The notes beneath the pieces are model-generated. The model saw only the letters and a program-made list of their open reading frames with translations, was not told the DNA's origin and ran no database searches. 22,968 nt of DNA from the NCBI GenBank assembly GCA_002293265.1, contig DBCW01000081.1, positions 1 to 22,968 of the forward strand. The letters run 5' to 3'. Numbering within the stretch: the stretch's first letter is position 1; each line of letters starts with the position of its first letter. Position numbers and translations under genes: made by a program. Shown here one piece after another: positions 10,554 to 22,968 of the stretch. The DNA comes from Eggerthellales bacterium UBA948 (lineage in GTDB: Bacteria > Actinomycetota > Coriobacteriia > Coriobacteriales > UBA8131).

Positions 10554-11813
10554 ATGCCAGCATTAACCGAGTGTAGAGAGTTTAAGATTTCTGAAGCATC
10601 CCAACAACTTGGTGTGTCTGTTGACACTATTAGACGCTGGGAAAAAATGGGGTTAATTAAAGCAACGAGAGATCAAAACAATCATAGGTTATTTAACCTA
10701 GATGAACTGACCCGTGTAGAAAAGAAAACTAGAGGAGAGCACGGCGAGAACAATTACACGGTGCTAAAGGAAAAGGTTGTCTATCCAGTGACGTGCATTG
10801 ACCTTTTTGCAGGTGCTGGTGGAACCGCGCTAGGTTTTCATAATGCTGGCATTCAACACGTGCTTTTATCAGAGTTGGATAAAGGGGCTTGCTCAACTCT
10901 TAGGGCGAACTCGGATGCCCTGTCACTTGGTTGGCGCATTGTAGAAGGTGATGTTGCCGATATTGATTATTCCGATATAACCGCTGATGTTATTCAAGCT
11001 GGCTTTCCTTGCCAAGCTTTTAGTTACGCTGGAAAAAGCCTGGGTTTTGAAGATACTAGAGGTACTTTGTTCTTTGAATTCGCGCGTGCTATTAAAGAAG
11101 TGAGACCAAAGATTGCTATAGGTGAAAATGTTCGCGGACTCCTCACGCACGACAACGGCAGAACTTTGCAAACCATGATTGATGTCTTGGATGATCTCGG
11201 CTACTCGACCAGCTACAAGGTGCTTAGATCGCAATATTTGGATGTGCCGCAAAAAAGAGAGAGACTAATACTCTTCGCTGCGCGAAATGATTTAGATACC
11301 CCTGCTATCTTTCCCAAAGAGAGAGACTACTATATTTCACTGAGAGAGGCTTTGCACGATTGCCCCGTATCTATTGGGCAATCATACACCGAGCGAAAGC
11401 GAAGTATTATGGAGCTGATTCCCGAAGGCGGATACTGGCGCGATCTTCCTGACCATTTACAGCGTGAGTATATGGGCGCAAGTTATTTTCTTGGTGGAGG
11501 AAAAACTGGTATGGCGCGTAGGCTTTCATGGGATCAGCCAAGTCTGACGCTTACCTGTAATCCCGCGCAAAAGCAAACCGAACGGTGTCATCCAAGCGAA
11601 ACAAGACCGCTTAATGTGAGGGAGTATGCTAGGATACAAACTTTTCCTGATGAATGGTCGTTTACCGGATCGGTATGCAGCCAATACAAACAAATTGGAA
11701 ATGCTGTTCCTGTCAATCTTGGTTATCATATCGGAAGGTGTGTTCTTGCAGCCTTGGGGCACATTGATATAACCGAGGATATGGATGTAATTCACACTCG
11801 AAAAGAGGGGTAA
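10554..11813 (+). CDS. DNA (cytosine-5-)-methyltransferase with an N-terminal MerR-type HTH
   Basis: Modification enzyme (419 aa) of a type II restriction-modification pair. Residues 10-52 form a MerR/excisionase-type helix-turn-helix (FKISEASQQLGVSVDTIRRW, then HRLFNLDEL). The m5C methyltransferase core follows: motif I IDLFAGAGG (82-90), motif IV GFPCQAF with catalytic C153, motif VI ENVRG (191-195), motif VIII QKRERLIL, a target-recognition region with GGGKTGMARRLSWDQPS, and motifs IX/X with REYARIQTFPDEW and QIGNAVPVNLG. All catalytic motifs are intact. The ATG has no clear Shine-Dalgarno. It is followed 1 nt later by the endonuclease gene. The HTH probably represses the gene's own promoter, as the N-terminal HTH does in M.EcoRII/M.SsoII-type enzymes, though here it is of a different HTH family. 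Specificity GGNCC is inferred only from the partner nuclease. Confidence 0.92.
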   Translation: MPALTECREFKISEASQQLGVSVDTIRRWEKMGLIKATRDQNNHRLFNLDELTRVEKKTRGEHGENNYTVLKEKVVYPVTCIDLFAGAGGTALGFHNAGIQHVLLSELDKGACSTLRANSDALSLGWRIVEGDVADIDYSDITADVIQAGFPCQAFSYAGKSLGFEDTRGTLFFEFARAIKEVRPKIAIGENVRGLLTHDNGRTLQTMIDVLDDLGYSTSYKVLRSQYLDVPQKRERLILFAARNDLDTPAIFPKERDYYISLREALHDCPVSIGQSYTERKRSIMELIPEGGYWRDLPDHLQREYMGASYFLGGGKTGMARRLSWDQPSLTLTCNPAQKQTERCHPSETRPLNVREYARIQTFPDEWSFTGSVCSQYKQIGNAVPVNLGYHIGRCVLAALGHIDITEDMDVIHTRKEG

Positions 11814-11814
11814 T

Positions 11815-12603
11815 ATGTGGAGCATGGACTTTATCAGCAAGGATGATTTTAGGACACACATTGCAAAGACAATTGGTGCCTATGCTGACAATTTACTTTC
11901 ATACGACATCAAAAAGTTCAACAGCAACATAGTTGATCCCATAAAGTTGATTTTTGATAAGTTTGTGTATGGACTCAGCTGGGAAGAGGTTATCAAGAGC
12001 GAAATATTTCGTCAAAGAGATAAATCAAACAACAACAGTATCGGTTATTTTCATCAAATGATGTTTAGCTATATTGCTGGTTGTGAAGTGCCCAAACAGG
12101 GTTGGGATGTAATCTTTAAGCCTGAAGGCGGTGTAGATGTTTTTGACAACCTGCATGTTTCCACAGTATACGTGGAGATGAAAAATAAGCACAATACTAT
12201 GAACTCTGCATCAGCTGGTAAAACATATATTAAAATGCAAGACCAGTTGTTAAGAGACGATGACTGTGCTTGCTTTCTTGTTGAAGCAATTGCAAAACAC
12301 TCTCAAAACTGTCAGTGGGATGTCACAGTTGACAAGGTAAAAAGAGGGCATAAATTGATTCGCAGAATCAGCTTAGACAAATTCTACGAGTTAGTTACTG
12401 GTGACCCAAATGCATTTTATAAAATTTGTCTAGCATTGCCTAATGAGATCGAATATGTCCTTAAAAATGTACCGAGCGTAAATGCTCCAGATGATTCCGT
12501 TTTTGAAGAGTTGTTAAGTTTTGCAGGCGGCGATGATACCGCTATCCCTATGGCACTTTATTTGCTTGGGTTTTATGAATACATAGGCTTTGCCAATGAA
12601 TAG
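11815..12603 (+). CDS. Eco47II-family type II restriction endonuclease
   Basis: A 262-residue nuclease paired with the methyltransferase. The sequence fits the RE_Eco47II family, whose founding members cut GGNCC. Recognised stretches are IGYFHQMMFSYI, a GWDVIF strand, VEMKNKHNTMNSASAGKTY, and ISLDKFYELVTGD. The PD-(D/E)xK core is readable as D98 (GWDV) with E121-x-K123 (VEMK), on a beta hairpin followed by the conserved KHNTMN. The start is ATG 11815, preceded by GAGG 6 nt upstream and 1 nt after the methyltransferase stop; ATG 11824 is a second option. Tight coupling to the methyltransferase ensures modification comes first. Family assignment is from memory of its conserved motifs and is fairly sure; cleavage specificity is inferred. 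Confidence 0.82.
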   Translation: MWSMDFISKDDFRTHIAKTIGAYADNLLSYDIKKFNSNIVDPIKLIFDKFVYGLSWEEVIKSEIFRQRDKSNNNSIGYFHQMMFSYIAGCEVPKQGWDVIFKPEGGVDVFDNLHVSTVYVEMKNKHNTMNSASAGKTYIKMQDQLLRDDDCACFLVEAIAKHSQNCQWDVTVDKVKRGHKLIRRISLDKFYELVTGDPNAFYKICLALPNEIEYVLKNVPSVNAPDDSVFEELLSFAGGDDTAIPMALYLLGFYEYIGFANE

Positions 12604-15014: not shown

Positions 15015-16511
15015 TTGGATGAAATAAACTCCAAGAAAGAAAAATCTTCAAATAATCTCTCGATTCTTATTTCACTTATTGATGCACACACAACATTATC
15101 TATCATTGCCTTTGCCTGTTATTGGGCATGGATTTTTACGTGTTACTGGGGCGGTGTCCTCAACCCAAGCTCTGAAACCTTGAGCTCTCTAGATTATATC
15201 AGTCGCTCTGGAGCACTCTGCGCTCAAGCACTGGGACTTGGCTTTATAGCAATATTTTGGAAAACCTTTTCAACAACTATAGGCCAGCGATTTCTTACTA
15301 TATTTATGATAGCTTGTGCTCCTCTTAGCAGCCTAAGCGTTTTATTACCCACACTTGGAATACCTGTATCCGACTGGCTTACTATTGCCTTCTTTTTTCT
15401 GTTTGGATGTGCTCATGCCTTTTTGTTTCTAAGAATTGGGCTCATTCTTGATACAATAAATGGTCGTGTTCTAAGTTTCTCTATTGCCATAGCTGTCCTC
15501 ACGAGCTGTGCTTTCTATGCCTTTCTAATCACCTTAAGCGGTGAAGTTCAGTTAATAACCCTCATGATCGTGCCGTGGGTTTGCTGTCTCATGGTTTTCG
15601 CTGCACGTCCAAGCGGAAAACTAATTATTCCTAATACTATGGAAGATTCAAAACAGGGCAAAGGAAACTATCTTTCTGCTGCAAGAGAATTTCGTTATTT
15701 CTTTATTCAGCTCTTGTTATATAGCATTGTGTTCTCAGCAATTCAAATGTTCATGTCTTTTACGCCTATTATCTTTCCCCAGGAGACAATTATGGGTGTA
15801 GCAATACTTGTATCGGGCGCAGTAATGCTGATATACAGTATCGCTGTAAGCAGATATGTGCCTGCTGGATCATTTTTATGGTACCTTTTACCTATCGTTG
15901 CGCTCGCACTATTGCCACTCTCTCTCGTTGACGGGCAAGGTCAAATTATTTGTTTTTTGATAGTTGCTTTTGGATTTACATGCTTTGACATGCTTTCTGT
16001 CTATCAGCTTACTGGATTGATCAAGTTTCACAATCTTAGTGTTGTGAGATATTTTGCTTTAGGTAGATTTGCAAATGCATTGGGCATGGCCATCGGTTGG
16101 CTTTTTGCTCTTGGTCTTATTTCAATAGTCAACTCTGCTGAGATGATTCTTGCTTATGGATCAACAGCTCTTGTTTCACTACTTGTCATAATACTTGCCG
16201 TACTTAACAAACCCAGTATTAAAATCTCTCCTTCTGCTCCCATAAGTGACGACAGTGCAATGCGAAAACCTTGGAAACAATGCTGCACCGAAATATGTGA
16301 GCAATCCGGGCTTTCACCACGCGAAATCGAAGTATTCATTATGCTCGCACGAGGGCGCACGGCACGCATGATATGTGAGAAACTATATATCTCCGAGTCA
16401 ACTGCAAAATCTCATATTTATCATATTTATCAAAAGACCGGATTTCACACGCATCAAGAGCTTATCGAAGAGGTTGAGAAGCGTTACTACGCAACTGAAG
16501 CTCAAACTTAA
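15015..16511 (+). CDS. LuxR-family transcriptional regulator with a multi-pass membrane sensor domain
   Basis: A 498-residue regulator. Residues about 18-400 hold roughly 12 hydrophobic helices arranged like an MFS transporter, probably sensing a ligand in or through the membrane. Residues about 430-490 are a LuxR/FixJ-type HTH with GLSPREIEVFIMLARGR, then ARMICEKLYISESTAKSHIY and HIYQKTGFHTHQEL. This architecture is strongly expanded in Eggerthellaceae, where such genes typically sit beside the molybdoenzyme operons they control. The start is TTG 15015, with GGGAGG 6 nt upstream; the ATG 4 nt later is out of frame. It faces, convergently, the molybdoenzyme/SpoVA operon. The ligand is likely the substrate of that operon (inference). 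Confidence 0.9.
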   Translation: MDEINSKKEKSSNNLSILISLIDAHTTLSIIAFACYWAWIFTCYWGGVLNPSSETLSSLDYISRSGALCAQALGLGFIAIFWKTFSTTIGQRFLTIFMIACAPLSSLSVLLPTLGIPVSDWLTIAFFFLFGCAHAFLFLRIGLILDTINGRVLSFSIAIAVLTSCAFYAFLITLSGEVQLITLMIVPWVCCLMVFAARPSGKLIIPNTMEDSKQGKGNYLSAAREFRYFFIQLLLYSIVFSAIQMFMSFTPIIFPQETIMGVAILVSGAVMLIYSIAVSRYVPAGSFLWYLLPIVALALLPLSLVDGQGQIICFLIVAFGFTCFDMLSVYQLTGLIKFHNLSVVRYFALGRFANALGMAIGWLFALGLISIVNSAEMILAYGSTALVSLLVIILAVLNKPSIKISPSAPISDDSAMRKPWKQCCTEICEQSGLSPREIEVFIMLARGRTARMICEKLYISESTAKSHIYHIYQKTGFHTHQELIEEVEKRYYATEAQT

Positions 16512-16570: not shown

Positions 16571-16729
16571 TTATGACTTGCGTTTGCCAATACCTGGTTT
16601 AGGCGGAAACTTAAAGCCGCAGTTATTACAAATAACGACACCCGGTACATTTTCATAGCCACACATTGCACAGGTCTCTAATGAGTATTTCTTTTTACAC
16701 TTGCCACAGTTTCGACAAGGATAACACAT
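16571..16729 (-). CDS. Small double zinc-ribbon protein (52 aa)
   Basis: A short gene that is easily missed. ATG 16729 has AAGGAG 7 nt upstream and encodes 52 residues with eight or nine cysteines: MCYPCRNCGKC, then TCAMCGYEN and ICNNCGFKFPPKPG, ending in a basic tail GKRKS. The paired CxxC knuckles (C5/C8/C11 region, C20/C23, C34/C37) indicate one or two zinc ribbons, or less likely an Fe-S or rubredoxin-like site. It is the last gene of the molybdoenzyme/SpoVA operon, 89 nt after the SpoVAE-like gene across a hairpin. Function unknown; a metal-binding or protein-binding accessory is plausible. Confidence 0.72.
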   Translation of the reverse strand: MCYPCRNCGKCKKKYSLETCAMCGYENVPGVVICNNCGFKFPPKPGIGKRKS

Positions 16730-16750
16730 ATACTTCTCCTTAAGATCGGC

Positions 16751-16780
16751 AAGGAGGCCGTATACATTTACGACCTCCTT
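16751..16780. other. Hairpin between the SpoVAE-like gene and the zinc-ribbon gene
   Basis: AAGGAGG and CCTCCTT (16751-16757 and 16774-16780), with a further CGTA/TACG pairing inside and a TACATT loop. There is no U-tract on either strand, so it is not a standard terminator. Read on the minus strand it could sequester an AGGAGG-like element or act as an RNA-processing or partial read-through site before the last gene. Confidence 0.5.
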
Positions 16781-16818
16781 TATGCGAGATGTAAAACAGC
16801 ACTACTTTGCGGTAATTG

Positions 16819-17205
16819 TTACTCTGATATTTTGGCACCACGTGTAACGGTTTTAGCGTCAGAGGCAATAGCACTTCTTATCATACCCGCAACAATACCT
16901 ATAATCATGAGTGACAAGAAAACGCCTAGCACTGTAACAATAGGAATCCAATTTCCTTGAAATAATGCCACCAGGGCTCCGGTCACTCCAGCACCTGCAT
17001 CCATCACCATGATAGCCATTCCGGCACCACCATACATTTCAAGCACTGCTATTGCTCCAAGAGGAAGTAAGACTGCGCCAATTGAAAAACCGATAATCAA
17101 AATCTCTGGCGGTTTTAGTTTTGTTAGCATCATGAACAGTTGAAAAACTGCGCAAAGCCCGCCGCCAATCAAAAATGCAAGTAAAAAACCAACTGCTATG
17201 TCCAT
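16819..17205 (-). CDS. SpoVAE-like (SpoVA family) membrane protein
   Basis: A 128-residue protein with about four transmembrane helices. The N-terminus AFLIGGGLCAVFQLFMMLTK followed by LKPPEILIIGFSIGAVL closely follows the SpoVAE pattern (FLVGGLICxxGQ...TKLTPxxILV...GxxLG), and AGAGVTGAL lies where SpoVAE has its Gly-rich segment. In spore formers, SpoVA proteins form the channel that moves calcium-dipicolinate. Nothing else here suggests sporulation, so the protein is probably repurposed. ATG 17205 follows AAGGAG at 6 nt. It lies 9 nt after the SpoVAC-like gene in the molybdoenzyme operon. A transporter or membrane anchor for that system is the likely role; family call is fairly sure, function is inference. 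Confidence 0.65.
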   Translation of the reverse strand: MDIAVGFLLAFLIGGGLCAVFQLFMMLTKLKPPEILIIGFSIGAVLLPLGAIAVLEMYGGAGMAIMVMDAGAGVTGALVALFQGNWIPIVTVLGVFLSLMIIGIVAGMIRSAIASDAKTVTRGAKISE

Positions 17206-17214
17206 CGTGTCTCC

Positions 17215-17604
17215 TTACAAAACAAAAGTGATTACAAGGGCAACAATAATTGCTGTAATCGATCCGGCTCCGATCACATACCAAACAAGCTTTGCGCTGG
17301 CCAATACTCCCGAAACTGCTGAACCCTTTTCCTCATTAACTCTACAAAACGTACCTGCTGCAGCGGCAGCTAATCCGCTAAAAGGAAGAATCGCACCAAA
17401 TCCACCTATTTTCTCGATCTTTTGATAGACCCCCAACGGAAAGGTGATCAAAGTAAAAAAGCCCATTAGTATCAAGGTGCCCGGCCCAACAATTGGCGAG
17501 GAAGAGCCAAAAACTGCAGCTAAGATTGTAAAAAATAGCTGTCCGAGAAGTGCCAATGAACCACCCACTAAGAACGCCATTGCGATTTTTTTAATGTACT
17601 CCAT
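17215..17604 (-). CDS. SpoVAC-like (SpoVA family) membrane protein
   Basis: A 129-residue protein with about four transmembrane helices. AMAFLVGGSLALLGQLFF matches the start of SpoVAC/SpoVAEB proteins. LGVYQKIEKIGGFGAILPFSG corresponds to their LGxYDKIxxxAGAGxxVPxTGFA block, and the following EEKGSAVSGVLASAKLVWYVIG fits their 'G...G...MF...GPVI' region. It lies 8 nt after the Fe-S subunit gene (stop TAG at 17613-17615) with AGGAG at 6 nt before ATG 17604, and 9 nt before the SpoVAE-like gene. Together they make a two-component SpoVA pair lacking the other SpoVA subunits (A, B, D, F). Substrate is unknown; a small carboxylate or aromatic acid is a reasonable guess from dipicolinate. Confidence 0.65.
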   Translation of the reverse strand: MEYIKKIAMAFLVGGSLALLGQLFFTILAAVFGSSSPIVGPGTLILMGFFTLITFPLGVYQKIEKIGGFGAILPFSGLAAAAAGTFCRVNEEKGSAVSGVLASAKLVWYVIGAGSITAIIVALVITFVL

Positions 17605-17612
17605 GACAGCTC

Positions 17613-17948
17613 CTAAATAGCGTATAGCACTTGCTTATTGTGGCTGGATACTTCCTTTACAAGATCCTCAAGCGAACCATACTTCATGCAGTCAGCTTGG
17701 CAATGCTGAACGCAACTTGGCAGCTTTCCTTTCGCAGCACGCTCTGCGCAAAGTGTGCACATATCGGTAAATACCGGCATGAAGCTGTACTGCCACTTCC
17801 TTTCGTCTATCTGCCAAGGTCCAACCTGAAACACCTTGACTCCGCTTTGACCTACAGGAAATCCAAATTCCATCTGGCAGGCCATTTCACAGCTATGGCA
17901 ACCAGTACACCAGTCATAATCAATAAGAATTCCGCTTTTTTCAGCCAT
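17613..17948 (-). CDS. 4Fe-4S dicluster electron-transfer subunit of the molybdoenzyme
   Basis: A small (111 aa) DmsB/HycB-like protein carrying electrons to or from the molybdopterin subunit. The cysteines are C14-x2-C17-x2-C20-x3-C24 (WCTGCHSCEMAC) and C64-x2-C67-x11-C79-x3-C83 (MCTLCAER...SCVQHC), plus an extra C87. That is enough for two [4Fe-4S] clusters, fewer than the four of full DmsB. No signal peptide or membrane segment, so it is cytoplasmic. I favour ATG 17948, with GGAG 7 nt upstream and a start that matches relatives. An in-frame ATG at 17960 (adding MENK) overlaps the end of the upstream gene by 11 bp and is also possible. The PWQIDERKWQYSFMP block is typical of Eggerthellaceae subunits of this kind. 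Confidence 0.88.
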   Translation of the reverse strand: MAEKSGILIDYDWCTGCHSCEMACQMEFGFPVGQSGVKVFQVGPWQIDERKWQYSFMPVFTDMCTLCAERAAKGKLPSCVQHCQADCMKYGSLEDLVKEVSSHNKQVLYAI

Positions 17949-17949
17949 T

Positions 17950-20193
17950 TTATTCTCCATCCTTTACCTTATAGAGTTTGACAAGCATGCATTTATAGTT
18001 GGATCCAAACCCACTTTTACCCGGAACCCACGGCACGCTGTTATTTATATTTAGATCAAAGACATCAAAAAGCTTCTCGGGATCACCTTCCGGATACCAC
18101 CAAGCATGATCTGTGGAGCAATACTTTGAATTAAGCAAAACGGTGGTAATCTGCACTTTTCGCTTAGCCCTGCCACGCTGGTTTTCAACCCAGACCCAAT
18201 CGCCGTCTTTTAATCCGTATTCACTTGCAGCTTCCGGATGAACCTCGATAATAGGATCAGGTCGCATAGCTCTCAGACGCGGAATATTACGATGCTCGGA
18301 GTGGAACATACCCCAATTGCGAGCGCCTGTTGTAAGTATCAGTGGATACTCGTTAAGAAGTTCTGGCGTAGATGTAGGGCCCGGATCAGGTTCTCCAAAA
18401 TATGGTAACGGGTCAAGATCGGCATTTGCATATTGAGTTGCCCATAGTTCGATGCGCCCTGTGGGAGTATTAAAGCCTGGTTGGCCGTCTTGCCGCAACA
18501 TACCTTTAGCATGTCGATCATAGCTAAACTGTGGGTAGGCAGGTGCAATTTCGCGCATTCCCTTAAAGTCATAGCCTGTCCCATCATATACTGCTGAGAA
18601 CATTTCCTGAACGTCTTTCCATGGCCAAGCACTTGGGTTAAAGCGACGTCCTAACTCAAGATTTATCTCCATATCAGAGCGACACTCACCAACCGAAGTA
18701 CACTTATTGATGGTCTCACCCCTCTGCGGGCCATCACCAACACGAATCCCATCACGCTCGGGAAATGTTGCTGCCGGGAGAACATAATCAGCAAGAGCCA
18801 TGATAGTTGGAGTCATGAATAGATCGATGCAAACCACAATGTCAAGATTTCTAGCAGCGTTATAAAAGCGTTTGGGATCTGCGCCCATACAAGCAATGGT
18901 ATTAGTGGTCTGAAGCCATGCGCCTTTTATTGCGTATGGATCAGCTGTTTCCATTTGAGCCATCATCTCATCAGCTTGCAGTGTGGCAAAGCCATGATGA
19001 AGCAATGGGTATTTTTGGAGACCAATACGCTTTGCTTCTTGTTCTGGGGTAAGCAAGTCCGACCCAAAACCACCGCCATAAAATAGGATTTCTGGAGGGG
19101 CAATCATGCATCCCGGCTTTTCAATGTAGCCGCATATCTGATAAATTGCTGCAATTGCCTGGATAGCTGGAAGCGCTTCACGCACCATGTCTACTGCTAG
19201 ACCCCATTGAATGCATCCGTTTTTAGCATTACCAAATGCACGCGCTGCCATACGAATATCTTCAGCCTCAAGCCAACAAATGTTGGCTACTTTTTCTACA
19301 GGATATTCCTGCACGCGCTTGCATAGCTCATCAAAACCATAACACCACTTATCAACAAACTCTTTATCATACAGCTCTTCATTAATAATGACGTTTAGCA
19401 TACCTAGAGCAAGAGCAGCATCGGTACCGGGACGAATTGCCAAATTGACCTCAGCACGCCTGCCCAACCAAGTCATGCGAGGATCAACAGTGATAATTTT
19501 CATACCGCGCTTCATAAGGTCTGTAACCCAATGGCCAAAAAAACCATCGGAATTGGAAATAAGCGGATTATTGCCCCACAAGATCATTACTTCAGGAACT
19601 TCATATTGTTCATTGTCATAACGATCGACAAATTGTTGTGAGCAGTCACACACCCAAAATGATCCGGTAGTAGACATCATTCCAGAAACGCGCGGCAGAT
19701 AACATGCAAGGCCCGAGAGTGGAAACCCGTAATTTGGGCTTCCAAACGACCACGCCAAGCGTGATATCCAGCTAGCAATATCACGGCCGGTTCCCTGAAG
19801 AAACACTATCGATTCCGGTCCAGAGCTGTCAGCAATTTCGTTAAACTTTGCTTCAATATCGTCAAGTGCCTCATCCCAAGATATACGCTCAAATTCATTC
19901 TTTCCACGCTTATCTTTATCTCGCTTCATGGGGTAAAGCAAACGCTTATCGCTATTAGTAACCTCAGGTAAATCTAGACAGCGTACGCACAGACGTCCTT
20001 TGTTGAATGGGTTTTCCGGATCACCTTCTACTTTCACTAACTTACCTTCATCGTTGGTATACATCAACACACCGCATCCAAGATGACAACCGGGTCCGGT
20101 CCAAGCACTTCCTCGCGTTACCGTATACCCCTCCTCTTCATAGCGCCAAGGTTTCTCGTGCTCAACGAGAACGTACTTTTTTTCTTCTGACAT
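17950..20193 (-). CDS. Molybdopterin-dependent oxidoreductase, catalytic subunit
   Basis: A 747-residue DMSO-reductase-superfamily enzyme with bis-MGD cofactor. Visible parts are an N-terminal Fe-S site (C36-x3-C40...C69-x2-C72), the FERISWDEALD block, GSPNYGFPLSGLACYLPR where C164 is the probable Mo ligand, and MILWGNNPLISNSDG. Further along are ITVDPRMTWLGRRAE, LADYVLPAATFPERDG and LTTGARNWGMFHSEHRNIP. The C-terminal molydop-binding domain has VHPEAASEYGLKDGDWVWVE. There is no Tat signal, so unlike most Eggerthella reductases it should be cytoplasmic. ATG 20193 follows AAAGGA. It is the first gene of an operon with the Fe-S subunit, two SpoVA-like proteins and a zinc ribbon. The substrate cannot be read from the sequence; reductase, dehydrogenase, dehydroxylase or hydroxytransferase activity are all possible. 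Confidence 0.92.
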   Translation of the reverse strand: MSEEKKYVLVEHEKPWRYEEEGYTVTRGSAWTGPGCHLGCGVLMYTNDEGKLVKVEGDPENPFNKGRLCVRCLDLPEVTNSDKRLLYPMKRDKDKRGKNEFERISWDEALDDIEAKFNEIADSSGPESIVFLQGTGRDIASWISRLAWSFGSPNYGFPLSGLACYLPRVSGMMSTTGSFWVCDCSQQFVDRYDNEQYEVPEVMILWGNNPLISNSDGFFGHWVTDLMKRGMKIITVDPRMTWLGRRAEVNLAIRPGTDAALALGMLNVIINEELYDKEFVDKWCYGFDELCKRVQEYPVEKVANICWLEAEDIRMAARAFGNAKNGCIQWGLAVDMVREALPAIQAIAAIYQICGYIEKPGCMIAPPEILFYGGGFGSDLLTPEQEAKRIGLQKYPLLHHGFATLQADEMMAQMETADPYAIKGAWLQTTNTIACMGADPKRFYNAARNLDIVVCIDLFMTPTIMALADYVLPAATFPERDGIRVGDGPQRGETINKCTSVGECRSDMEINLELGRRFNPSAWPWKDVQEMFSAVYDGTGYDFKGMREIAPAYPQFSYDRHAKGMLRQDGQPGFNTPTGRIELWATQYANADLDPLPYFGEPDPGPTSTPELLNEYPLILTTGARNWGMFHSEHRNIPRLRAMRPDPIIEVHPEAASEYGLKDGDWVWVENQRGRAKRKVQITTVLLNSKYCSTDHAWWYPEGDPEKLFDVFDLNINNSVPWVPGKSGFGSNYKCMLVKLYKVKDGE

Positions 20194-20607: not shown

Positions 20608-20961
20608 GTGATTGATAATATTTGTGATTGCGATGTCATCCATCAAGATGTGGTGGATTACGTAAGCGAAAGAATGCCTCAAAATGATGAGTTCTATGCT
20701 CTGGCAAATCTGTACAAAATGTTTGCCGACAGCACCAGGATCAAGATTCTTTGGGCGCTTTCTTGTAAAGATATGTGTGTCTGTGACTTGGCGGCGTTAT
20801 TAGGCATGACCAAATCAGCCATTTCTCATCAACTTAAATCGCTGCGGTTATCTAACCTTGTTAGACCCGACAGGCAGGGCAAGATTGTTTTTTACTCACT
20901 TGCTGATGATCATGTAAAGGAGATCTTTATTAAGGGCTTTGAACATACTCATCATCAGTAA
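20608..20961 (+). CDS. ArsR/SmtB-family metal-sensing repressor, CadC-like
   Basis: A 117-residue winged-helix repressor released from DNA by Cd(II), Pb(II) or Zn(II). It shows both sensor sites of CadC almost residue for residue. The alpha3N site has C57-x-C59 (MCVCDLA; CadC C58/C60) plus N-terminal C6 and C8. The alpha5 site has D100, H102, H113 and H116 (CadC D101/H103/H114/E117). The HTH is LAALLGMTKSAISHQLKSLR, and the wing ends in GKIVFYSLAD. GTG 20608 has AAGGTG 7 nt upstream. It sits under its own operator and directly before the metal-export ATPase. Zn versus Cd/Pb preference needs biochemical data; having both sites suggests a thiolate Cd/Pb sensor. Confidence 0.92.
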   Translation: MIDNICDCDVIHQDVVDYVSERMPQNDEFYALANLYKMFADSTRIKILWALSCKDMCVCDLAALLGMTKSAISHQLKSLRLSNLVRPDRQGKIVFYSLADDHVKEIFIKGFEHTHHQ

Positions 20962-21028
20962 TTCGTAAAAATTTTTAAGCAGACAGTTGAACAGTAAAGC
21001 AACTATTCAATATAAAAGGAAAACGAAA
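20962..21028. promoter_or_regulatory. Second ArsR-type half-site before the ATPase gene
   Basis: ACAGTTGAA (20983-20991), identical to the left arm of the main operator, is followed by TTCAA at 21005-21009, giving a loose TTGAA-N13-TTCAA dyad. It may allow separate control of the ATPase gene. No clear promoter hexamers accompany it. Confidence 0.4.
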
Positions 21029-22968
21029 ATGCAAAAGGAATACTTTTTAGAAGGACTTGGTTGCGCTAACTGCGCTATGAAAATAGAAAATGCCACAAGC
21101 GCTTTGGAGCACGTTTTATCTGCCAGCGTTAACTTTGCCACAAGCACAATGCAGGTAAAGACCGTGGAGGGTTATCGCGGTGACATTGCTGTAGATGTCA
21201 AGCAGATCGTTCGCAAATACGAGCCGGATGTGATTGTTATTGACAAAACGCAAGCAAAAACAGCTACCACCGCGTCTAGGGTCGTGACTATTAAGAACAA
21301 AGAGGTCGTCGCACTCATTATAGGCGCAGTGTTATTTGGGCTCACTTTCTTTACCGGTCTTCTAATTAATCTTCCCCCTTACATCTCTTTGGTCGGCTAC
21401 TTACTTGCTTACCTTACGCTGGGTGGCAAGGTATTGATTAAGGCTATACGAAATATCTTCCATGGTCAGTTCTTTGATGAAAGCTTCCTTATGAGTGTTG
21501 CTACCATTGGCGCTTTTATTATCGGCGAATACCCGGAAGCTGTGGCGGTAATGCTTTTTTACCAAGTCGGCGAGTTTTTTCAAAACCTGGCGGTGTCTCG
21601 CTCAAAAAAGTCCATTACCGATCTTATGGATATCAGACCGGACTTTGCCCACCTCAAAGTGGACGAAACACTGCAAAGAGTATCTCCTGAGACCATTAGC
21701 ATCGGCGACATAATCTTAGTAAGGCCCGGAGAAAAAATTCCGCTTGACGGAGTGGTGATTAGCGGCAAGTCCATGCTTGATACAACTGCTTTGACAGGCG
21801 AATCTTTGCCACGCAAAGTTGGGGTTTCTGATGAGGTGTTATCAGGTTGTATCAATCAAAATGGCGTTTTGACCATCCGTGTCACCAAAACTTTTGGCGA
21901 TTCTACTGTTGCAAAAATTATCGAGCTGGTAGAAAGTGCCGGTAACAAAAAGGCACCAACGGAGAACTTCATCACCAAATTCTCTCGATATTACACACCT
22001 GTTGTTGTTGGACTGGCGGTACTTATCGCCATTATTCCACCGCTTCTTTTTGGCGGTGTTTGGACAGATTGGATAAACCGAGGTCTTATCTTTTTAGTCA
22101 TTTCTTGCCCTTGCGCTCTGATAATCTCTATCCCGCTCGGTTTCTTTGGTGGCATTGGCGGTGCCTCAAAAAAAGGCATACTTGTAAAAGGAGGAAACTA
22201 TCTGGAAGCGCTGGGCGATTTGGACATTGTCGTTTTTGATAAGACCGGCACACTTACCAAAGGCGTATTTGAGGTAACCAAGCTCTGTCCGGCCGATAAC
22301 CACAACGAGATTTCACTTCTAAAGACCGCTGCCCAGGCTGAGGTGTTTTCTAATCACCCTATTGCCCTATCGATCATGAAAGCATATGGCAAAGATATCG
22401 ACAAAACCAAATTGTCTGACTATGAAGAGATATCAGGGCATGGCGTGCAAGTTGATATTGAGAACAAAACTGTGTTAGTCGGCAACGCAAAACTAATGAC
22501 TGCACGAAACATCAGTTTTACCGAGACTAAAGACGTTGGCGCAATAGTTTACGTCGCAGTTGATGGCACGTTTGCCGGAAGCATCGTAATATCTGACGAG
22601 CTTAAAGAGGATAGCACCAAGGCAATTGCTGCGCTTAAAGCCCGAGGGGTTCAAAAAGTCGCCATGCTTACCGGTGACACTGCTGAAATCTCTAAAGCTA
22701 TAGCAGACAAATTGAATCTGGATGAGGTACATGCAGAGTTGCTGCCGGCTCAAAAAGTTGAGAAAGTGGAGCAGTTAGATACACAAAAGCGTCGAAAAGG
22801 TAAGCTAGCCTTTATTGGCGATGGTATAAACGATGCGCCGGTACTAGCGCGCTCCGATATAGGTATTGCGATGGGAGGACTCGGGTCAGATGCTGCCATA
22901 GAAGCAGCCGACATCGTACTGATGACCGATGAGCCGTCCAAACTTGCAGAAGCCATTGATGTGGCAAA
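21029..22968 (+). CDS. Zn/Cd/Pb-exporting P1B-type ATPase, 3' end beyond the window
   Basis: ATP-driven heavy-metal exporter (CadA/ZntA type), 646 codons visible and still open at the window edge. The N-terminal HMA domain carries GCANCA (residues 12-17). Transmembrane helices follow (about 95-165), then the actuator loop with TGES. The metal-path motif SCPCALIISIPLGFFGGIGG is typical of P1B-2 Zn/Cd pumps. The phosphorylation site is DKTGTLTKG, with SNHPIA (the nucleotide-binding His) and GDGINDAPVLA downstream. ATG 21029 follows AAAAGGA at 8 nt. It is co-transcribed with, or has a second half-operator after, the CadC-like repressor, which fits metal-induced expression. Confidence 0.93.
   Translation, partial: MQKEYFLEGLGCANCAMKIENATSALEHVLSASVNFATSTMQVKTVEGYRGDIAVDVKQIVRKYEPDVIVIDKTQAKTATTASRVVTIKNKEVVALIIGAVLFGLTFFTGLLINLPPYISLVGYLLAYLTLGGKVLIKAIRNIFHGQFFDESFLMSVATIGAFIIGEYPEAVAVMLFYQVGEFFQNLAVSRSKKSITDLMDIRPDFAHLKVDETLQRVSPETISIGDIILVRPGEKIPLDGVVISGKSMLDTTALTGESLPRKVGVSDEVLSGCINQNGVLTIRVTKTFGDSTVAKIIELVESAGNKKAPTENFITKFSRYYTPVVVGLAVLIAIIPPLLFGGVWTDWINRGLIFLVISCPCALIISIPLGFFGGIGGASKKGILVKGGNYLEALGDLDIVVFDKTGTLTKGVFEVTKLCPADNHNEISLLKTAAQAEVFSNHPIALSIMKAYGKDIDKTKLSDYEEISGHGVQVDIENKTVLVGNAKLMTARNISFTETKDVGAIVYVAVDGTFAGSIVISDELKEDSTKAIAALKARGVQKVAMLTGDTAEISKAIADKLNLDEVHAELLPAQKVEKVEQLDTQKRRKGKLAFIGDGINDAPVLARSDIGIAMGGLGSDAAIEAADIVLMTDEPSKLAEAIDVA

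Follow-up and report, generated by a model that had tools for sequence, protein, structure and literature searches.

Why should an operon for a cytoplasmic molybdoenzyme in a gut-type bacterium from an apparently non-sporulating lineage carry two genes that resemble those of a spore channel? The question arises at positions 16571 to 20193 of contig DBCW01000081.1 (assembly GCA_002293265.1; C106 in this analysis) of Eggerthellales bacterium UBA948. The whole stretch of DNA analysed, hereafter the window, is 22,968 nt long, and its assembly (G000) comprises 2.9 Mb in 180 contigs and is 83% complete. The most likely answer is that a SpoVA-type channel has been recruited outside sporulation for aromatic acids, transport being the role that we infer for it. 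All five minus-strand genes reported by the first-pass annotation are present, and from 20193 down to 16571 they follow in this order:

17950..20193, minus strand: MoA, catalytic subunit (747 amino acids, aa) of a bis-molybdopterin guanine dinucleotide molybdopterin oxidoreductase, with PF00384, PF04879 and PF01568
17613..17960, minus strand: MoB, small iron-sulfur (Fe-S) subunit, 115 aa, with Fer4 matches
17215..17604, minus strand: VAC, SpoVAC-like multi-helix membrane protein, 129 aa, matching PF03862 and TIGR02838
16819..17205, minus strand: VAE, SpoVAE-like membrane protein, 128 aa, matching TIGR02839
16571..16729, minus strand: zinc-ribbon protein, 52 aa, Cys-rich

The tight spacing claimed for these genes holds for the first four, whose overlaps and gaps are all below 12 bp (MoA and MoB overlap by 11 bp; 8 bp separate MoB from VAC and 9 bp VAC from VAE), and the zinc-ribbon gene lies 89 bp beyond VAE.

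VAC passed the cut-off of the Pfam family PF03862 (SpoVAC_SpoVAEB) with 38.6 bits against 25, and VAE alone fell below it (20.5 bits). Among NCBIfam models, VAC matched TIGR02838 SpoVAC (43.7 bits, E 2.1e-11), and the single match of VAE was TIGR02839 SpoVAE (27.6 bits, E 2.8e-6). Neither reached the respective equivalog cut-off (164 and 131.1 bits), which two sporulation copies of a Desulfitobacterium metagenome-assembled genome (MAG) exceeded (189.6 and 146.0 bits). The VAE and VAC profiles aligned with each other over 79 columns at 96% probability, and the VAC profile aligned with the sporulation SpoVAC of the Desulfitobacterium MAG over 126 columns. Judged by these profiles, the proposed SpoVAC-like and SpoVAE-like pair is real at the superfamily level only: VAC and VAE are relatives of SpoVAC and SpoVAEb, not sporulation genes. 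The lineage also appears to be non-sporulating, as had been suggested. Specifically, the Spo0A_C domain (PF08769) was found in none of 25 genomes (our own, 83% complete, and 24 relatives; 12 of the 25 at least 90% complete), and SpoVAD (PF07451) was not found in our 83% complete genome, with one of the 25 giving a borderline 22.2-bit match.

According to passages of PMC13059800, SpoVAC and SpoVAEb reportedly form a membrane complex through which dipicolinate passes. The window pair is like this channel of endospore formers in belonging to the same Pfam superfamily, in consisting of small multi-helix membrane proteins and in bringing C-like and E-like partners together. It differs from the spore version in scoring far below the sporulation equivalogs, in lying in a metabolic operon and in belonging to a genome where, at 83% completeness, neither SpoVAD nor Spo0A was found. 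Unlike spore SpoVAC-SpoVAEb, its homologues are often fused in relatives. One such protein, in our own genome (349 aa, contig C175, locus L004), joins SpoVAC and SpoVAE halves and sits behind another molybdoenzyme gene and an Fe-S gene. In one set of loci whose neighbourhood was examined, every VAC stretch had a VAE stretch with it, either as a protein of its own or fused.

The closest relative of MoA by sequence in the PDB, and its nearest solved structure, is the acetylene hydratase of Pelobacter acetylenicus (2e7z, 307 bits). The Asp of the CDINC motif of that enzyme, which we take to be catalytic, is replaced in MoA by His37, and His occurs in 60 of the 60 aligned rows with a residue there. 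This replacement speaks against MoA being an acetylene hydratase. Cys164 (61 of 61 aligned rows) is a plausible metal ligand. In MoB, eight of nine Cys are kept in all 55 aligned rows and the ninth in 46, and the eight invariant residues would leave room for two [4Fe-4S] clusters. Read by eye, the N-terminus of MoA is not like a twin-arginine translocation (Tat) signal, in agreement with the first-pass annotation, and a Pfam scan of MoA, MoB, VAC and VAE found no anchor of the NrfD, DmsC or PsrC type.

This is the layout of Gordonibacter-type catechol dehydroxylases (Dodh, Gp Hcdh): a catalytic subunit of about 750 aa without a Tat-like N-terminus, a small Fe-S partner and no recognised anchor. 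Further points of likeness are a multi-transmembrane (multi-TM) LuxR regulator nearby and kinship to acetylene hydratase, a relation reported for catechol dehydroxylases in parts of PMC7028382. The named relatives of MoA at 62–64% identity, among the best 120 of 3821 matches, are Gordonibacter (62–63%), Ellagibacter and Adlercreutzia proteins whose substrates are unstated. Passages of PMC11887054 and PMC11585353 describe Gordonibacter-type enzymes as two cytoplasmic subunits, and passages of PMC7028382 and PMC11887054 describe two-subunit relatives of MoA-MoB as soluble and without an anchor. From its sequence and layout, MoA-MoB looks like one of these soluble two-subunit enzymes, whose defining reaction is removal of the para-hydroxyl from a catechol.

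What the pair contributes to such an enzyme is best approached through the gene behind the enzyme in its relatives. A MoA search of 396 sampled Coriobacteriia genomes, with at most two candidates scored per genome, gave 53 matches at 53% identity or more (one a fragment), of which 46 had their neighbourhood examined. For this comparison 40 enzyme loci were fetched, picked after leaving out places already sampled. Behind the enzyme they carried the pair (2 loci), a major facilitator superfamily (MFS)-type transporter (7), a four-helix protein (7) or none of these (24, in some of them with a second molybdoenzyme following). The MFS-type loci are L090, L092, L093, L108, L111, L114 and L124, with MFS_1 recognised by Pfam in L092, L108, L111 and L124; beyond the Pfam-scanned proteins, MFS and four-helix assignments were made by similarity. 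In the enzyme tree the window MoA groups with L090, L091, L092 and L093 (76–77% identity), and in three of these four nearest relatives (L090, L092, L093) the operon position of the pair is taken by an MFS gene; in L090 it lies directly behind the enzyme, with no MoB between. Because MFS transporter and pair exchange in one operon slot, a transport role is favoured, and this is our strongest argument for it. Passages of PMC7028382, PMC11887054 and PMC11585353 place MFS or other transporters beside some Gordonibacter-type systems and make no mention of a SpoVA pair. The four-helix membrane proteins (about 167–199 aa) lie behind MoB in one enzyme subclade (L099, L104, L105, L107, L109, L113, L128); the two of the seven that were Pfam-scanned, from L099 and L113, had no family match.

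The first-pass annotation had proposed that the pair replaced the usual membrane anchor, and the position directly behind the Fe-S subunit is indeed that of anchors in three-subunit enzymes. We consider it very unlikely that VAC and VAE dock MoA-MoB as an anchor or quinone-linked subunit. In the two-subunit cytoplasmic relatives described in the passages cited above there is no anchor that could be replaced, a recognised membrane subunit is missing from many close relatives of MoA-MoB, and three of the four nearest carry the MFS gene. At L154 a complete DmsA-DmsB-DmsC set (DmsC, PF04976, 46.0 bits) precedes the pair in the same operon, and the presence of the pair beside DmsC disfavours anchor replacement. 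The alignments of VAC and VAE hold no invariant His or Cys (VAE Cys18 is nearly invariant), the Cys of MoB suffice for two clusters, not four, and related pairs exist without a molybdoenzyme nearby.

The linkage between pair and enzyme was also followed from the side of the pair. The profile built from 14 VAC proteins (A1) matched 73 places in 59 of the 396 Coriobacteriia genomes; neighbourhoods were obtained for 54 places, including all 19 that scored at least 84 bits, and some end at contig ends. Direct same-strand adjacency to molybdoenzyme genes was found at 11 of these 19 best-scoring places (the window, L033, L034, L035, L100, L115, L152, L154, L158, L160, L161); L035 and L152 stand outside the count of 46 MoA matches, because the two candidates scored in those genomes were other enzymes. 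At five others (L151, L153, L155, L159, L180) a molybdoenzyme lies within about 3.5 kb but is not contiguous, or is head to head. Within the class to which the Desulfitobacterium MAG belongs, the pair occurred in 3 of 82 genomes (E at most 1e-12), and all four of its places there directly adjoin molybdoenzyme genes. The orthologues are not independent observations: the pair label needs 6 changes among the 62 rows of the enzyme tree.

On the weaker-scoring side, five loci besides the directly adjacent L004 (L039, L040, L045, L169, L183) lie within about 5 kb of a molybdoenzyme belonging to the profiled kinds. In two of them, L045 and L169, a fused SpoVA-type protein lies downstream of MoA-MoB on the same strand, and the genes between include a CitMHS-type transporter (L045) or many-TM proteins (L169). 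At L158 the pair is kept and the adjoining MoA is in broken frames, and L036 and L157 have related pairs with no MoA in the fetched stretch; the three loci suggest loss of the enzyme and retention of the pair.

A fused homologue lying beside MoA-MoB (L115) was modelled from a 42-sequence alignment with a predicted local distance difference test score (pLDDT) of 94.6 and a predicted template modelling score (pTM) of 0.89. The helix pattern of its first half recurs in the second about 130 residues further on, with single strand or bridge residues at 76 and 206. The window VAC modelled alone gave pLDDT 83.0 and pTM 0.57, and the separate VAC and VAE would be expected to pair as the L115 halves do.

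Several results weigh against reading the pair as a channel dedicated to the enzyme. Among the top 19 places, three (L036, L157, L162) had no molybdoenzyme in the fetched stretch, that of L162 being cut by a contig end, and only one of the 35 weaker-scoring places with a neighbourhood (L004) directly adjoins molybdoenzyme genes. Seen from the enzyme, the pair directly adjoins only 5 of the 46 MoA matches (the window, L034, L100, L115, L158) and shares a gene run with a sixth, L160. The pair does not, then, strictly track the enzyme clade, as the first-pass annotation would have had it, and most of the lower-scoring homologues examined lack an adjoining molybdoenzyme. Our own genome gave 80 PF00384 matches (some being pieces of one gene), which makes mere closeness to a molybdoenzyme unremarkable; little weight attaches to anything short of direct adjacency in an operon. 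No solved structure clearly resembles the model, and pore and direction therefore rest on the spore literature. For a 2.9-Mb incomplete genome, 80 such matches is in its own right an extreme expansion of molybdopterin oxidoreductases.

A rival reading is that the pair is a general mechanosensitive or stress-release channel, hitch-hiking in these operons with no substrate link to the enzyme. Most weaker homologues examined adjoin unrelated genes, ten scanned neighbours including EF-G, DeoR, PfkB, metallo-lactamase-fold, solute-binding and CitMHS proteins, and SpoVAC appears alongside mechanosensing in germination papers. Yet direct adjacency recurs across separate enzyme subclades and across two phyla, and the pair swaps with MFS transporters at the same operon position; we regard hitch-hiking as unlikely.

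A hint on the substrate comes from L177, probably Desulfitobacterium chlororespirans, where Mo2A-Mo2B-VAC-VAE-MoA-MoB are followed by an O-demethylase-like set, all on one strand with gaps of at most 227 bp. Behind MoB stand a methyl-accepting chemotaxis protein (MCP)-type protein, a methyltetrahydrofolate-corrinoid methyltransferase, a corrinoid protein and a UroD-family methyltransferase. The best PDB match of the methyltetrahydrofolate-corrinoid methyltransferase is 4o0q (309 bits), and for the corrinoid protein the matches are 1y80 (163 bits) and 4jgi (132 bits); the UroD-type protein has no PDB match. Structures 4o0q and 4jgi are presumably those of D. hafniense O-demethylase proteins; a solved structure of this kind is the subject of PMC3727330. 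Glycine-betaine and methylamine families give further scores with the corrinoid protein, none of which reaches its cut-off, so the methyl donor at L177 may be of another kind. O-demethylation of methoxyaromatics yields phenols and catechols, which makes a catechol-type substrate for MoA-MoB plausible from the gene set.

Taken as a whole, we hold with moderate confidence that a soluble Gordonibacter-type enzyme is here combined with a SpoVA-type VAC-VAE channel for its aromatic acid substrate or product. MoA-MoB would be a cytoplasmic molybdoenzyme of the catechol-dehydroxylase kind that reductively modifies a small aromatic compound, probably a carboxylated one. VAC and VAE together would make up a heteromeric channel in the membrane, of the same build as the SpoVAC-SpoVAEb dipicolinate channel, passing the aromatic acid in or the product out from the slot that MFS transporters occupy in sister operons, and the substrate is probably sensed by the neighbouring LuxR regulator with its many TM segments. 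The best-supported role is the one that the first-pass annotation had already suggested, transport of an aromatic carboxylate. That the pair mainly exports a dehydroxylated product or toxic intermediate, rather than importing substrate, seems to us somewhat unlikely. SpoVA complexes handle both import and export of dipicolinate (passages of PMC13059800), and import or export has been suggested for the MFS neighbours of catechol dehydroxylases (passages of PMC7028382), but a facilitative channel would serve both directions.

Our literature searches found no paper describing a SpoVA pair that serves a molybdoenzyme operon. More tentatively, at slightly less than even chances, SpoVAC/SpoVAEb could be one branch of a wider vegetative family of small-acid channels, made in one or two pieces, in which the dipicolinate channel of spores is a specialised form and non-spore-formers have channels dedicated to aromatic acids that serve molybdoenzyme respiration. 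Work on SpoVA proteins has centred on spores, in which assays of the channel are difficult. With a version encoded in an operon of vegetative cells, in some relatives as one chain of about 260 residues that is modelled confidently, the transport function of the fold could be tested in a simple system. Such a version would also matter for gut polyphenol metabolism, namely for the route by which aromatic substrates reach cytoplasmic molybdoenzymes.

Two further features lie beside the operon genes:

15015..16511, plus strand: multi-TM LuxR-type regulator, PF00196 at residues 432–484, 11 TM segments by a simple hydropathy count
16752..16779, minus strand: RNA hairpin with 11 pairs in the interval from VAE to the zinc-ribbon gene, not followed by a T run

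The LuxR-type gene is the convergent neighbour of the molybdoenzyme operon and probably regulates it; its family is described in parts of PMC9734109. The 98-nt stretch with the hairpin gave a z of -2.74, with 3 of 200 shuffles folding equally well. Relatives that have the pair and relatives that lack it both carry Cys-rich homologues of the zinc ribbon after VAE or MoB, and the 52-aa protein is therefore probably an accessory of the enzyme type, not of VAC-VAE. Tiny zinc ribbons recur behind two-subunit enzymes in the window, L092, L093, L116, L112, L123 and L119, and the catechol-dehydroxylase passages of PMC7028382, PMC11887054 and PMC11585353 make no mention of them. Elsewhere in the window, positions 10554–12603 hold a C5 cytosine methylase with a MerR-type N-terminal domain beside an Eco47II-type restriction enzyme, and positions 20608–22968, divergent from the molybdoenzyme operon, hold an ArsR-type regulator followed by a heavy-metal P-type ATPase.

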